49,320 bases of DNA from Acidocella sp. (GTDB lineage Bacteria; Pseudomonadota; Alphaproteobacteria; Acetobacterales; Acetobacteraceae): contig JAMFRU010000053.1 of assembly GCA_026224875.1 (NCBI GenBank), positions 1 through 49,320 on the forward strand, given 5' to 3'. The position numbers were made by a program, and so were the translations under genes. The notes below the pieces were generated by a model that saw only the letters and a program-made list of their open reading frames with translations, did not search any database and had not been told where the DNA came from. Shown piece by piece: positions 17,877-26,317 of the stretch; position 1 is the stretch's first letter; every line of letters begins with the position of its first letter.

Positions 17877-17906
17877 TTGACTGTTCCGAGAATATCTAAT
17901 TATAAC
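17877..17906 (+). promoter_or_regulatory. Promoter of the threonine attenuator
   Basis: TTGACT (17877-17882), an 18-bp spacer and TATAAC (17901-17906) form a good sigma-70-type promoter. The predicted start falls at about 17912, the A of the leader-peptide ATG, so the leader would be translated from a leaderless end. Confidence 0.75.
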
Positions 17907-17911
17907 AAAGA

Positions 17912-17992
17912 ATGAGCGGTATTCATCTGATCAGCACCACGACGACAACGACGACCAGCATTTGCGGGTCGCCTGGAGGTCGTGCGCGCTAG
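17912..17992 (+). CDS. Threonine leader peptide (26 aa, seven consecutive Thr codons)
   Basis: The frame ATG (17912) to TAG (17990-17992) encodes a 26-residue peptide starting MSGIHLIS, then seven Thr codons in a row (17936-17956: ACC ACG ACG ACA ACG ACG ACC), then SICG and an Arg-ending tail. A run of one amino acid in a short peptide before an alternative-hairpin terminator is the mark of an attenuation leader, as in thrL or the pheST leader. No Shine-Dalgarno is visible; the predicted transcription start coincides with the ATG. Ribosome stalling when charged tRNA-Thr is scarce would favour expression of the downstream synthetase. Confidence 0.85.
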   Translation: MSGIHLISTTTTTTTSICGSPGGRAR

Positions 17993-18055
17993 GATCAGAA
18001 ACGCCGCAGACCACCAAGGGCCCCGCCGGGAACGGACGGGGCCCTTGGTGTTTTT
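17951..18055 (+). terminator. Attenuator: alternative antiterminator and Rho-independent terminator
   Basis: The terminator is a perfect 14-bp stem (18012-18025 with 18037-18050, CACCAAGGGCCCCG arm) with an 11-nt loop and T5 (18051-18055). A competing pairing joins CCTGGAGGTC (17972-17981) to GACCACCAAGG (18009-18019), nine pairs with one mismatch and one bulge, and would capture the terminator's 5' arm. A third pairing, ACGACC (17951-17956, inside the Thr codons) with GGTCGT (17978-17983), blocks the antiterminator when the leader is untranslated. This is the classic 1:2, 2:3, 3:4 arrangement. The pairings are read from sequence; the regulatory logic is inferred. Confidence 0.85.
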
Positions 18056-18093
18056 AGCCTCCGTCTCTCGGCTTCAACTGACGGAGACTTACC

Positions 18094-19314
18094 ATGAACG
18101 AACTCGATCATCGCCAATTGGGAAATAACCTCGACCTCTTTCATCAGCAAGAGGAAGGCCCTGGAATGGTTTTCTGGCATCCACGCGGGTGGGAACTTTA
18201 TCGCGTGATCGAAGACTATATTCGATCACGAATGCGTAGTGCCGGCTTTCGGGAAATCAGAACACCGCAACTGCTGGCCAGATCGTTATGGGAGCAAAGC
18301 GGTCACTGGGAAAAGTTCGGAGAAAATATGTATTCATTGATCGATGGGGAAAGAGCCTTCTGCCTGAAGCCGATGAGTTGCCCGTGTCATGTACAGGTCT
18401 TCAAAAAACATGTCCGATCTTATCGCGATCTGCCCATACGATATTCGGAATTCGGTGCCTGCCATCGCGACGAACCATCTGGCTCATTACAAGGACTGAT
18501 GCGGACTCGCGCCTTTGTTCAGGATGATGCTCATGTTTTTTGTACTGAGAGTCATATTGAGCCCGAGGTCCGGAGGTTCTGCAACCTGTTAAGGGTGATC
18601 TATGGCGATCTCGGCTTTCCCGATTTCTCTGTCGCCTTTTCAACACGGCCAGCAAAACGCGCTGGAACCGATGAGGTGTGGGATCGGGCTGAAGCAGCAT
18701 TGTCAAATGCGGTGGAACGCACGGGTCTGAATTTCATCGTTCGGGAGGGCGAAGGAGCATTTTATGGCCCAAAACTCGAATTTCACCTGACTGATGCTAG
18801 AGGCCGGAATTGGCAATGCGGTACCGTGCAACTCGATCTCGTTCTGCCGGAACGATTAGGCGCCGAGTTTGTTTCTGAATCAAATACTCATGAGATTCCG
18901 GTAATGATTCATCATGCGGTTCTCGGCAGTATGGAACGCTTTATCGGCATGCTGCTGGAACATTATGAGGGATGGCTTCCGGTTTGGTTGGCTCCCGACC
19001 AGGTGGTGGTGGCAAGTGTCAGTGCTGCGAGCGACACTTACGCACATCACATTCAACATCTGCTTTCAAATGCGGGCGTTCGCGCCACTCTTGATGATCG
19101 ATCCGAGCGGCTTCCCAGGAAGATCGTCGACGCACGGGAACGTTGCGTTCCAATCTTCCTAACCGTGGGAAAACGCGATCAGGAAAATCAAACTGTGTCG
19201 TTGAGATTGCGCGATGGCAGCCAAGAGACAATGAATTTAGCGGAAGCAATAGAGCAGATCGGAGGAGAAGCGCTGTCTCCGATCTTCAAAGCAACCTCCA
19301 AGTTAAGCTCTTAG
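18094..19314 (+). CDS. Truncated threonyl-tRNA synthetase paralog (no TGS or editing domain)
   Basis: A 406-residue class II synthetase core plus anticodon-binding domain (from about 300). It starts where the catalytic core of full-length ThrRS (about 640 residues) starts, so the TGS and N2 editing domains are absent. The Zn ligands are present: Cys96 in MSCPCH, His147 in QDDAHVF and His273 in PVMIHHAVLG. Motif 2 (YSEFGACHRDEPSGSLQGLM) and motif 3 (GSMERF, 278-283) are intact, so it should charge tRNA-Thr but not clear Ser-tRNA-Thr. An atypical Cys98 replaces the usual Gly in MNCPGH. GC is below that of the neighbours, suggesting transfer. ACGGAGAC precedes the ATG; expression is gated by the Thr leader. 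Drug-resistant or starvation-induced second ThrRS roles are possible. Confidence 0.9.
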   Translation: MNELDHRQLGNNLDLFHQQEEGPGMVFWHPRGWELYRVIEDYIRSRMRSAGFREIRTPQLLARSLWEQSGHWEKFGENMYSLIDGERAFCLKPMSCPCHVQVFKKHVRSYRDLPIRYSEFGACHRDEPSGSLQGLMRTRAFVQDDAHVFCTESHIEPEVRRFCNLLRVIYGDLGFPDFSVAFSTRPAKRAGTDEVWDRAEAALSNAVERTGLNFIVREGEGAFYGPKLEFHLTDARGRNWQCGTVQLDLVLPERLGAEFVSESNTHEIPVMIHHAVLGSMERFIGMLLEHYEGWLPVWLAPDQVVVASVSAASDTYAHHIQHLLSNAGVRATLDDRSERLPRKIVDARERCVPIFLTVGKRDQENQTVSLRLRDGSQETMNLAEAIEQIGGEALSPIFKATSKLSS

Positions 19315-23604: not shown

Positions 23605-24866
23605 GCCGTCAACCTATCGATAATGGCGGAGAATTTCGGCACCTGGCTCACCGGGCCAATGCTCGCAAGCGTGGGTTTTTGACGGAATATTTTCGCGCCC
23701 GCCGCCTGCACCTGTTCCACCGTCACCGCCTCGATTTTCGCAATCGTCTCAGACACCGGGATAATACGGCCAAAAATCTGCCACTGCCGCGCCAGCTGCT
23801 CGCAGCGGGAACCTGTGGATTCCAGGCTCATCAGCAACCCGGCCTTCAACTGCGCTCGCGCCCGGGCCAGCTCGGCCTCGCTTACATTATGCTGCACCTT
23901 TTGCAGCTCCTCCAGCGTCACCGGCATAAGTTCGGCCGCCTCGGACTCACCCGTACCGGCATAAATGCCAAACAACCCGCCATCTTCAGCCGGCGAGGTA
24001 AAGCTATAAATCGAGTAAACCAGCCCACGCTTTTCCCGGATTTCCTGGAACAGCCGCGACGACATACCCCCGCCCAGCACGGTGGAAAGCAGCATCGAAG
24101 GGTAATAATCTACCTCGCCATAGCCCGGCGCGTTGAACCCGAGCACAATATGCGCCTGGTCCAGATCGCGCATCTCCCGGTACTCGCCGCCCATATAGTC
24201 GGACGGCATCGGCGCTTCCCGCTCGGCACGCGGCAGCTTGGAGAAATGCCGCTCAGCCAGCTCCACCACATCCTCGTGGCGCAAATTCCCGCTGGCGGCG
24301 ATCACCATGTTCTCAGGCGTATAATGCGCCTGCATAAACCCGTGCAGCGCCTCGCGCTTCATCCCGCGGATGATCTGCTCCGTGCCCAGCACCGGCCGGC
24401 CCATTGGCTGCGACGGGTAAGCGGCGGACTGGAAATGGTCGAACACGATATCATCAGGGGTATCATTCGCCTGGCCGATTTCCTGCAAAATCACGCCGCG
24501 CTCGCGCTCGACCTCATCGGGCTCAAAGGTAGAATTACACAGAATATCGCCAATGATATCAACGCCGAGGGCCAAATCTTCCTTGAGCAGCTTCACATAA
24601 TAAGCCGTCTGCTCACGCGAGGTGTAAGCGTTGATATGCCCGCCGACATTCTCGATCGCCTCGGCAATATCCACAGCCGATCGCGTATCGGTGCCCTTGA
24701 AAGCCATATGTTCGAGAAAATGCGCCACACCGTTCTCGGCAGCGGTCTCGTTCCTGGTGCCGGCGCCCACATAGGCGCCGAAGGAGATCGTCTCCACCCG
24801 CTCCATGCGCTCGGTCAGCACGGTGAGGCCGGATGGCAGAGTGGTGATGCAAACCTGTTCAGACAT
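23601..24866 (-). CDS. M16-family zinc metallopeptidase (processing-peptidase-like)
   Basis: A 421-residue single-chain M16B peptidase. The inverted zinc motif HxxEH is HFLEH at residues 49-53, followed by MAFKGT; the distal Glu lies in the ERERGVILQEI region near 125. C-terminal domain hallmarks are GGGMSSRLFQEIREKRGLVY near 280. It resembles mitochondrial processing peptidase beta and PqqL/YmxG. The chosen ATG (24866) has AGGAAT upstream and overlaps the thrC stop by 8 bp; the frame open further upstream runs into thrC and is rejected. The thrC-M16 order is conserved across Alphaproteobacteria. Cytoplasmic or periplasmic location is unclear; no signal peptide is visible. Confidence 0.94.
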   Translation of the reverse strand: MSEQVCITTLPSGLTVLTERMERVETISFGAYVGAGTRNETAAENGVAHFLEHMAFKGTDTRSAVDIAEAIENVGGHINAYTSREQTAYYVKLLKEDLALGVDIIGDILCNSTFEPDEVERERGVILQEIGQANDTPDDIVFDHFQSAAYPSQPMGRPVLGTEQIIRGMKREALHGFMQAHYTPENMVIAASGNLRHEDVVELAERHFSKLPRAEREAPMPSDYMGGEYREMRDLDQAHIVLGFNAPGYGEVDYYPSMLLSTVLGGGMSSRLFQEIREKRGLVYSIYSFTSPAEDGGLFGIYAGTGESEAAELMPVTLEELQKVQHNVSEAELARARAQLKAGLLMSLESTGSRCEQLARQWQIFGRIIPVSETIAKIEAVTVEQVQAAGAKIFRQKPTLASIGPVSQVPKFSAIIDRLTA

Positions 24867-26262
24867 TAACATTCCTGTTGGCAAAATTCCGCACGCATGT
24901 CTCGATAGCAGCCAAATCATTAGGCGCGCGGATAAACTTCTCGTCTCTCTCATATAGGTTGGAAAGATGCGGCGGTAGTGGCGGGCGGCTGCCCACCGCT
25001 TTTTCGATGGCATCGGGGAATTTTGCGGGGTGCGCGGTGGCCGCGGCAATCACCGGCATGCCGATGGGGCCCAGCTCCCGTGCTGCGGCAATGCCGATGA
25101 TGGAATGTGGGTCGGCCAGATATTCGGCTTCCCGGAACAGCCGGGCAATTTCGGCCAGCGTCTGCTCGTCCGACAGGGTGAATGCCTTGAAATCCTTGGC
25201 AATGGCGCGCCACACCGGCTCGGCCACGCTCATTTTGCCCGTGCTGCGGAAATCCGCCATGGTCTGGCGCAGCAAATCCGCATCCCGGCCCAAAAACTCA
25301 AACAGCAGCCGCTCGAAATTGGAGCTGAGCTGAATATCCATGGAAGGCGACAGGCTGGCCTCCACCCCACGCACGGACATGTCGTTGGCGCTCAGGAAGC
25401 GGGCCAGAATATCGTTGCGGTTGCTCCCCACGATGAACCGGGCAATCGGCACGCCCATCTGCTTGGCGGCCCAGGCGGCCAGAATATTGCCGAAATTGCC
25501 GGTGGGGACGGATACGGCGACATCGCGCTCCGGCGCGCCCAAATTCAGTGCCGCGTACACATAATAAGGGATTTGCGCCGCAATCCGGGCAAAATTGATG
25601 GAATTCACCGCCGAAAGGTTCATCTCGGTGCGGAACGGCGCATCGGCAAACATCGCCTTCACCAGATCCTGGCAATCGTCGAAATTACCCTTCACCGCGA
25701 TGTTCAGCACGTTATCGGCCTGCACAGTCGTCATCTGCCGGCGCTGCACCTCGGAGGTTTTGCCCTCGGGATGCAGAATGGTGATGTCGATATTCTTCCG
25801 CCCCGCCACGGCCGCGATGGCCGCCGAGCCGGTATCGCCCGAGGTCGCCCCCACAATCCGGATTTTCTCGCCCTTATCCGCCAGCACATGCTCGAACAGA
25901 TGCCCGACCAGCTGCAGCGCCATATCCTTGAAGGCCAAAGTCGGCCCGTGGAACAGCTCCAGCGCATAGATATTCGTATCCAGCTGCACCAAAGGTACGA
26001 CGGATTTGTTGGTAAACCCGGCATAGGCGCGGCGGCACATGCCCTGCAAATCCGCAAAACCGATGCTGCCCTCGGTGAACGGCGCCAGCACGCGCGCGGC
26101 AAGCTCGGGATATGGAAGTCCGCGCAAAGCCCGCAAATCAGCGGCCGAAAAACGCGGCCAGCTGGCTGGCATATAAAGCCCGCCATCATTGGCGAGGCCC
26201 GCCAGCAGCACACCGGCGAAATCAAGCTCGGGTGCCAAGCCACGGGTCGATTGGTAGCGCAT
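24859..26262 (-). CDS. thrC: Threonine synthase
   Basis: ThrC converts O-phosphohomoserine to threonine with PLP. The 467-residue protein is of the longer class (fungal and gammaproteobacterial type). It has RYQSTRG at the start, ANDGGLYMP, the PLP lysine at residue 112 in FHGPTLAFKDMALQ, and the cofactor loop VGATSGDTGSAAI. The ATG at 26262 is chosen because AAGGA lies 7 nt upstream; a TTG eight codons earlier lacks such spacing. It overlaps the M16 peptidase gene by 8 bp and follows hemW by 55 bp. No Thr leader is visible in front of it. Confidence 0.97.
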   Translation of the reverse strand: MRYQSTRGLAPELDFAGVLLAGLANDGGLYMPASWPRFSAADLRALRGLPYPELAARVLAPFTEGSIGFADLQGMCRRAYAGFTNKSVVPLVQLDTNIYALELFHGPTLAFKDMALQLVGHLFEHVLADKGEKIRIVGATSGDTGSAAIAAVAGRKNIDITILHPEGKTSEVQRRQMTTVQADNVLNIAVKGNFDDCQDLVKAMFADAPFRTEMNLSAVNSINFARIAAQIPYYVYAALNLGAPERDVAVSVPTGNFGNILAAWAAKQMGVPIARFIVGSNRNDILARFLSANDMSVRGVEASLSPSMDIQLSSNFERLLFEFLGRDADLLRQTMADFRSTGKMSVAEPVWRAIAKDFKAFTLSDEQTLAEIARLFREAEYLADPHSIIGIAAARELGPIGMPVIAAATAHPAKFPDAIEKAVGSRPPLPPHLSNLYERDEKFIRAPNDLAAIETCVRNFANRNVNV

Positions 26263-26317
26263 CAAGAAATCCTTATGGTCCGCCAACTTATACGGTCAGT
26301 CGATGCGGGTGCCTATA

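Follow-up and report, generated by a model that had tools for sequence, protein, structure and literature searches.

A threonine-codon leader that probably controls a second, editing-less threonyl-tRNA synthetase in alpha- and betaproteobacteria

The stretch of DNA considered here (the window) comprises 49,320 nucleotides (nt) of contig JAMFRU010000053.1, from the alphaproteobacterium Acidocella sp. (assembly GCA_026224875.1). Within it, a gene for a short form of threonyl-tRNA synthetase (ThrRS) is preceded by a leader region, in which a promoter, a small open reading frame (ORF) rich in threonine codons, and an intrinsic terminator follow one another on the forward strand. The features, each with the evidence from which it was read, are as follows.

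17877-17906 (+): promoter, with TTGACT at 17877-17882, an 18-nt spacer, and TATAAC at 17901-17906 (window sequence and homologues)
17912-17992 (+): leader peptide ORF of 26 codons, MSGIHLISTTTTTTTSICGSPGGRAR, with its stop codon at 17990-17992 (window sequence)
17936-17956 (+): seven Thr codons in tandem, which make up RNA segment 1, the partner of segment 2 (sequence and folds)
17975-17986 (+): RNA segment 2, GGAGGTCGTGCG, predicted to pair either with segment 1, the Thr codons, or with segment 3 (folds)
18005-18015 (+): RNA segment 3, CGCAGACCACC, the putative antiterminator partner of segment 2, which overlaps the base of the 5' arm of the terminator (covariation)
18012-18055 (+): intrinsic terminator, with arms at 18012-18028 and 18033-18050 followed by TTTTT at 18051-18055 (sequence, fold, and a conserved core in homologous leaders)
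18094-19314 (+): short ThrRS of 406 amino acids (aa), from the ATG at 18094 to a stop codon that ends at 19314 (ORF and domains)

The leader ATG at 17912 lies 5 nt downstream of TATAAC, and the leader stop codon follows soon after segment 2, the geometry needed for attenuation. The terminator stem (18012-18050) consists of 14 outer and 3 inner pairs. When folded, the 145-nt leader RNA reaches -80 kcal/mol (z = -8.5), and none of 200 shuffled sequences folds equally low. A generic promoter and terminator scan listed neither the promoter nor the terminator on the + strand; both were missed because of the rules of the scan: TATAAC does not have the T demanded at position 6 of the -10 element, and the bulged head of the terminator does not form a loop of 3-8. 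That the two elements are not there by chance is argued by the homologous leaders described below, since these keep both. Of 77 homologous leaders, 76 have a TTGAC within the 60 nt that precede the leader ATG, and in 73 of those 76 the distance from TTGACN to the ATG is 29-31 nt. (This distance was used instead of the gap between the -10 element and the ATG, which is unreliable when the -10 sequence can be chosen freely.) Such spacing places the start of transcription at or near the leader AUG; thus, the leader mRNA is probably leaderless, with transcription beginning at or next to the leader ATG. The trpL RNA of S. meliloti is reported to begin with its AUG (PMC10117765).

The Pfam domains of the short ThrRS are PF00587, the class II core, and PF03129, the anticodon-binding domain, only; neither a TGS domain nor a tRNA_SAD editing domain was found in the Pfam scan. 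The protein passes the NCBIfam thrS model with 464.6 bits (cut-off 383.65), covering model positions 171-562 of 565, and its nearest solved chains are truncated constructs of the ThrRS catalytic core. C, H, and H occupy the sites aligned with C334, H385, and H511 of E. coli ThrRS, which we take to be the Zn ligands of that enzyme. The original prediction, which was made from the sequence without database searches, is upheld on these points: the promoter, the 26-codon leader with seven Thr codons, and the terminator with its five T residues stand where it had read them, and both the domain scan and the aligned C, H, and H agree with its description of a ThrRS core that has the Zn ligands without TGS or editing domains. 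It had also called for a full-length thrS elsewhere in the genome, and one is present. This gene encodes a 643-aa enzyme with TGS, tRNA_SAD, core, and anticodon domains, and the two proteins are 53% identical over their common part. The only PF07973 matches in the genome are this ThrRS and a frame of 916 aa, the length expected of an AlaRS. Since this search of the assembly, which is 95% complete, found no freestanding editing protein, any editing in trans would fall to the full-length ThrRS. Archaeal-type split ThrRSs work together with a freestanding editing protein; an arrangement of this type was considered and set aside, as the genome has no separate small tRNA_SAD protein.

Related genes were sought by a scan of contigs, in which the best 80 of 577 matches were considered. 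At least 21 loci with a short ThrRS were recognized (20 at first, with L069 being recognized later), in Paraburkholderia, Burkholderia, Inquilinus, Bradyrhizobium, and metagenome-assembled genomes; these hosts include both alpha- and betaproteobacteria. Each of 20 genomes (20/20) contains exactly two ThrRS matches at E <= 1e-60, one a full-length and the other a short frame, which fits the earlier description of the short enzyme as a standby ThrRS. By protein search at the thresholds used, the short gene is present in 46 of 127 genomes in the genus of P. fungorum (G397) and in 21 of 146 in the genus of B. algeriense (G415). Given this sporadic presence in both genera, it is an accessory gene. 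In the family to which the window belongs, 378 of 397 genomes have a ThrRS match, and among the matches listed all but the window copy are 51-57% identical, the level of the full-length genes. The count of short ThrRSs in this family is not strict, as open frames of 400, 412, and 461 aa near contig ends (G075, G206, and G252) were set aside as possible further short enzymes and four other genomes with two matches stand outside it.

In a maximum-likelihood tree of 62 rows, 32 short enzymes lie on one side of a branch with support of 100/100, and 29 full-length ThrRSs together with that of E. coli lie on the other. The window copy clusters with eight copies from Burkholderiaceae (support 100/98). 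The GC content of the short gene in the window is 51% (50% at third codon positions, GC3), versus 59-66% (GC3 of 72-79%) in five nearby genes. Because of this placement among Burkholderiaceae and the lower GC, the window copy was probably acquired horizontally. The original prediction had taken the low GC as a sign that the gene was transferred together with its leader; the comparison with the five genes confirms the former, and the tree, the GC, and the sporadic occurrence bear out the latter. An empty insertion site was looked for but did not come to light; of 15 genomes in the genus, just 3 have a match to the upstream flanking gene. No cluster of neighbors common to the different lineages was seen within the flanks (up to 3 kb) of 21 loci, where ORF calls are crude, neighbors are unannotated, and the calling overlooked even the synthetase in L041, L042, and L044. 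Some neighbors do recur within Paraburkholderia, Inquilinus, Burkholderia, and Bradyrhizobium, each genus taken separately. In the window, an ORF that resembles threonine synthase, named from its sequence only, lies at 24859-26286 on the - strand, about 5.5 kb from the short ThrRS.

The leader travels with the short gene. A covariance model (R1) was built from 21 leaders, which therefore match by construction. R1 matches end to end in front of the gene in 77 of 78 sources, including 56 of the 57 outside model-building; with L069, a leader match is found 5' of 78 of the 79 short genes that were identified by protein, a count that excludes loci selected through their leader (these are included in the tree and in the residue counts below). 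In L207, the exception, the first ~65 codons of the gene are missing, as is the leader, and unrelated sequence stands in front; this is probably a decaying copy. Among 69 further ThrRS loci, the only such match is at L069 (89.9 bits), itself a short gene; none of the 68 other thrS loci has a leader-model match that adjoins the gene. At one full-length thrS locus, an end-to-end match of 24.6 bits (L098:378-523) is 2.5 kb away from the matched core, on its upstream side, and at L110 there is a 15.6-bit fragment on the opposite strand.

The homologous leaders share clustered Thr codons, an intrinsic terminator before the gene, and a mutually exclusive antiterminator. All 77 leader frames contain Thr codons, from 2 to 14 per frame. 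(An initial threshold of at least 5 Thr in 8 codons overlooked all six Bradyrhizobium leaders, which were recovered by direct reading of the DNA.) In the window, segment 2 (GGAGGUCGUGCG) can pair either with the upstream Thr codons or with CGCAGACCACC at the base of the terminator arm. Pairs of this antiterminator helix were counted in the 52 of 77 leaders that are of the GGAG type, the others being judged from single folds. Across the 52, 87.1% of the cells are paired versus 29.6-54.1% when the partner is slid, a comparison that is tilted toward the helix because its structure was taken from one aligned sequence. The covariation score is 0.188, versus 0.128 (sd 0.011) for shuffled alignments, and 18 cells are doubly changed, versus 6.9 when shuffled; none of 500 shuffles was as high by either measure. 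Compensating pairs include GGUUGC/GCAAACC, GGUCGC/GCAGACC, and GGAGAUUGC/GCAAAUCCCC, while leaders that break pairs include L171 and L202. In Bradyrhizobium an equivalent helix is formed from different sequence, CUGG(U)/ACC(C)AG. The antiterminator helix thus covaries across the 52 leaders, and together with the conservation of the leader this bears out the earlier reading of the region as an attenuator.

No Rfam family reaches its gathering score in the window. The Thr_leader family (RF00506) gives a weak match on the correct strand and in the correct place, with 27.9 bits in the window and 33.7 bits in L052, relative to a gathering score of 55 bits. A T-box was considered and rejected, there being no Rfam match to one in the window, nor in seven loci searched at E <= 1, where the only rows to appear were the sub-threshold Thr_leader and three that were likewise sub-threshold or else unrelated.

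Very probably, then, the leader is a ribosome-mediated transcription attenuator that derepresses a standby, editing-less ThrRS when the level of charged tRNA-Thr falls. RNA polymerase would start at or next to the leader ATG, and a ribosome would translate the Thr-rich leader peptide. When Thr-tRNA is plentiful, the ribosome would reach the leader stop codon and cover segment 2, allowing the terminator (18012-18055) to form. When charged tRNA-Thr is scarce, the ribosome would stall on the Thr codons, masking segment 1 and freeing segment 2 (17975-17986), which could then pair with segment 3 (18005-18015). With this helix in place, the terminator would lose its base, beside the T-run, and RNA polymerase would read on into the short ThrRS gene. 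By recharging tRNA-Thr, the enzyme would shut off its own synthesis. Because it has no editing domain, any Ser-tRNA-Thr that it makes would be cleared only in trans, by the full-length ThrRS. We infer from the sequence the response to charging, the activity of the enzyme, its mischarging with serine, the RNA start, and the natural trigger, for which the candidates are starvation for threonine, a loss of zinc, or a compound that inhibits the main enzyme.

Constraint on the protein is shown by dN/dS values of 0.05-0.18 in eight close pairs of short ThrRS genes, and the short enzyme looks active. In counts whose rows share ancestry and include loci found through the leader, so that they are not independent events, C334, H385, H511, and G463 (E. 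coli numbering) are retained in 86 of 86 distinct short enzymes; Tyr462, R363, K465, and Q484 are each retained in 87 of 87 rows, and R609 in 86 of 87. The set of 86 was obtained when L092, a full-length gene with a broken frame, was taken out of the 87. Two residues that adjoin Zn ligands mark the short clade: S333, present in 86/86 short enzymes versus N in 84/85 full-length ones, and H512, present in 85/86 versus R in 85/85. Both groups exclude L149, a short enzyme with a long open frame upstream, as well as 12 rows with at least 130 aa upstream that contain no recognized editing motif. Rows that do not span the core, including the broken short genes L192, L193, L194, and L207, were excluded from the counts, and L078 and L086, which are cut by contig ends, were left out of the short and full-length classes. 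The misframed rows L004 and L010 are out of the tree but still in the first residue alignment.

Several observations weigh against the attenuator explanation. The longest unbroken Thr run is just 1-3 codons in 25 of the 77 leaders, and the Bradyrhizobium leaders have few Thr codons (2-5), so that the sensor would be weaker there. The terminator is very GC-rich, and the antiterminator opens no more than its lowest pairs; consequently, the switch has to depend on timing and on the gap thus created before the T-run. Pairs that are changed on both sides number only 4, which is not above the shuffles (110 of 500 as high). The slid comparison is tilted as noted above, the pair count covers 52 of 77 leaders, and the single folds leave aside L182, L204, L205, and L206, which the terminator pattern missed. 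Both attenuation and its response to charging are read from DNA sequence. Finally, three anticodon-domain residues that are nearly always kept in full-length enzymes are mostly or wholly lost: N575 is kept in 5/86 short versus 81/85 full-length enzymes, K577 in 0/86 versus 84/85, and H585 in 0/86 versus 81/85. With such clade-wide changes, the choice or recognition of tRNA may differ.

This last point bears on an improbable alternative, that the short protein charges a different or an additional tRNA, or has a role outside of translation, and that the leader couples it to threonine status. The replacement in the short clade of N575, K577, and H585, near-invariant in full-length ThrRSs, would suit it. 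However, R609, R363, K465, Q484, and the Zn ligands are retained at the frequencies given above, and a leader that senses Thr codons fits charging of tRNA-Thr as the regulated output. Somewhat better placed, though still doubtful, is the idea that the short enzyme is a low-zinc back-up, with zinc loss disabling the main ThrRS and the attenuator reading the resulting fall in charged tRNA-Thr. The T2 enzyme of Anabaena, a second ThrRS with impaired editing, is reported to be induced by low zinc through Zur (PMC4787780), Zur-linked ThrRS paralogues that retain the Zn ligands have been predicted in gamma- and betaproteobacteria (PMC2770081), and the clade-marking S333 and H512 adjoin Zn ligands. 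Yet what the control element reads is Thr codons, none of the three Zn ligands has been lost, and no neighboring ORF was seen to be common to the lineages in the 21 loci, although with crude and unannotated ORFs a zinc gene could be overlooked.

The original prediction also raised the possibility of a resistance copy, and it is quite unlikely that the gene serves for self-protection or acquired resistance to ThrRS inhibitors such as obafluorin or borrelidin, induced by the uncharged tRNA to which the inhibitor gives rise. ObaO protects the obafluorin producer P. fluorescens, in which a knock-out is sensitive, and is also found in Burkholderia diffusa (PMC11252418); induction based on charging would answer any ThrRS inhibitor, and sporadic occurrence suits an accessory gene. 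But ObaO has Ser, a residue tied to its resistance, at the site of Gly463 in E. coli, whereas the window copy and all 86 short enzymes have Gly there, which disfavors a copy of the obafluorin/ObaO type; Tyr462 is retained in 87/87 rows, Met is present at position 489 in just 2 of 86 short enzymes, and the unannotated neighbors include no ORF shared by the lineages in the 21 loci. It is scarcely credible that the leader is a chance Thr-rich ORF before an ordinary terminator, with no regulation. The failure of the promoter and terminator scan to list either element speaks for it, but the arrangement is found again at 78 of 79 short genes and covariation supports the antiterminator; to the extent that sequence can decide, this reading is refuted.

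An extension of the attenuator reading, which we regard as speculative and rather unlikely, is a self-limiting mistranslation circuit, in which Ser is loaded onto tRNA-Thr, ribosomes are kept moving, and the attenuator is closed again. The leader would measure aminoacylated tRNA-Thr, not threonine itself; when threonine is short, the non-editing enzyme, with its changed S333 and H512, could load serine and thereby produce Thr-to-Ser substitutions. If this were true, the loss of editing would be a retained function and not decay, and it would have been kept from one origin that predates the dispersal across alpha- and betaproteobacteria.

The leader design is not confined to the short ThrRS. 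In a search of 385 alphaproteobacterial genomes (E <= 1e-6, with stricter filters), 35 contain R1 matches, and of 42 matches outside the window, 29 were inspected: 12 lie before a short ThrRS, 10 before asd-like genes, and 7 before other or unclear genes. Pfam semialdehyde dehydrogenase domains lie downstream of the leader in all five of the asd-like loci that were scanned (L212, L216, L217, L223, and L224), and the downstream genes of L218, L219, L221, L227, and L232 were read as asd from their N-terminal sequence. The asd leader peptides contain Lys and sometimes Met codons in addition to those for Thr; all three amino acids are end products of the aspartate pathway. In S. meliloti, the small protein SEP5, with six Thr and three Lys codons, is encoded in the 5' untranslated region of a gene called aspartate dehydrogenase; its translation was observed, and a possible leader peptide is proposed by the authors (PMC10117765). 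Alphaproteobacteria use one leader-attenuator design for a synthetase as well as for asd, a biosynthetic gene. A similar layout of leader and terminator precedes GNAT acetyltransferase genes at L234 and L222; one of these two leaders holds two Trp codons (MSEFRFSGMWFSYWSTGRG...) and the other has no Thr run. Weak leader matches at L229, L233, L236, L225, and L235 are followed by genes that are unclear or distant, including an Antibiotic_NAT-family protein 278 nt past the L233 match and an ABC-transporter ATPase after that at L235.

Synthetase genes under attenuation are already known, a second hisS with leader control being one of them, and so are duplicated ThrRSs. What appears to be new is a widespread, monophyletic, editing-free ThrRS that comes with a Thr leader of its own. 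A search of the open-access literature, which leaves out most subscription papers, yielded no account of a short ThrRS under leader control; one comparative study of attenuation in aminoacyl-tRNA operons may already list such a leader. The recurrence of switch and gene in distant bacteria suggests an old emergency back-up for protein synthesis. Here, a bacterial ThrRS is naturally free of editing, and from a conserved control element its production can be predicted to coincide with low levels of charged tRNA-Thr. It thereby becomes possible to test whether cells put up with less faithful translation in order to survive a charging crisis.

Several known systems resemble this one in part. In E. 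coli pheST, a leader peptide with cognate codons, an antiterminator, and a terminator precede the synthetase genes, but the target is the only PheRS of the cell, whereas here it is a second ThrRS that lacks editing. In B. subtilis, ThrZ is also a second ThrRS, induced by threonine limitation; its control, however, is by a T-box, to which no match is present here. The thrABC leader of E. coli is a Thr-codon attenuator as well, but it governs a different gene, and the match here is below the RF00506 gathering score. In bacilli, a His-codon leader is present before a second hisS and before hisZ (PMC2965389). Control of a duplicated synthetase gene by a leader peptide is common to both cases; the bacilli system differs in that it concerns histidine, HisRS, and Firmicutes, and the accessible part of that report makes no mention of a missing editing domain. 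Like the short ThrRS, Anabaena T2 is a second ThrRS that is impaired in editing and made under stress, with the full-length ThrRS editing in trans; unlike the short ThrRS, it still has an editing domain, though a degenerate one, and is under the control of Zur instead of a Thr leader (as reported in PMC4787780). ObaO, too, is a second ThrRS beside a housekeeping one, but its Ser at the Gly463 site is absent here, and since the construct used consisted of residues 241-637, ObaO is longer than the short ThrRS (PMC11252418). E. coli ThrRS 242-642, described in the same report, is a man-made truncation for ATP-hydrolysis assays (PMC11252418); its extent is close to that of the short protein, which is natural. 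The asd leaders of Alphaproteobacteria, to which R1 also matches, and SEP5 of S. meliloti resemble the leader in the window, but they precede a biosynthetic gene, and Thr codons stand among those for Lys and, in some of the asd leaders, Met.

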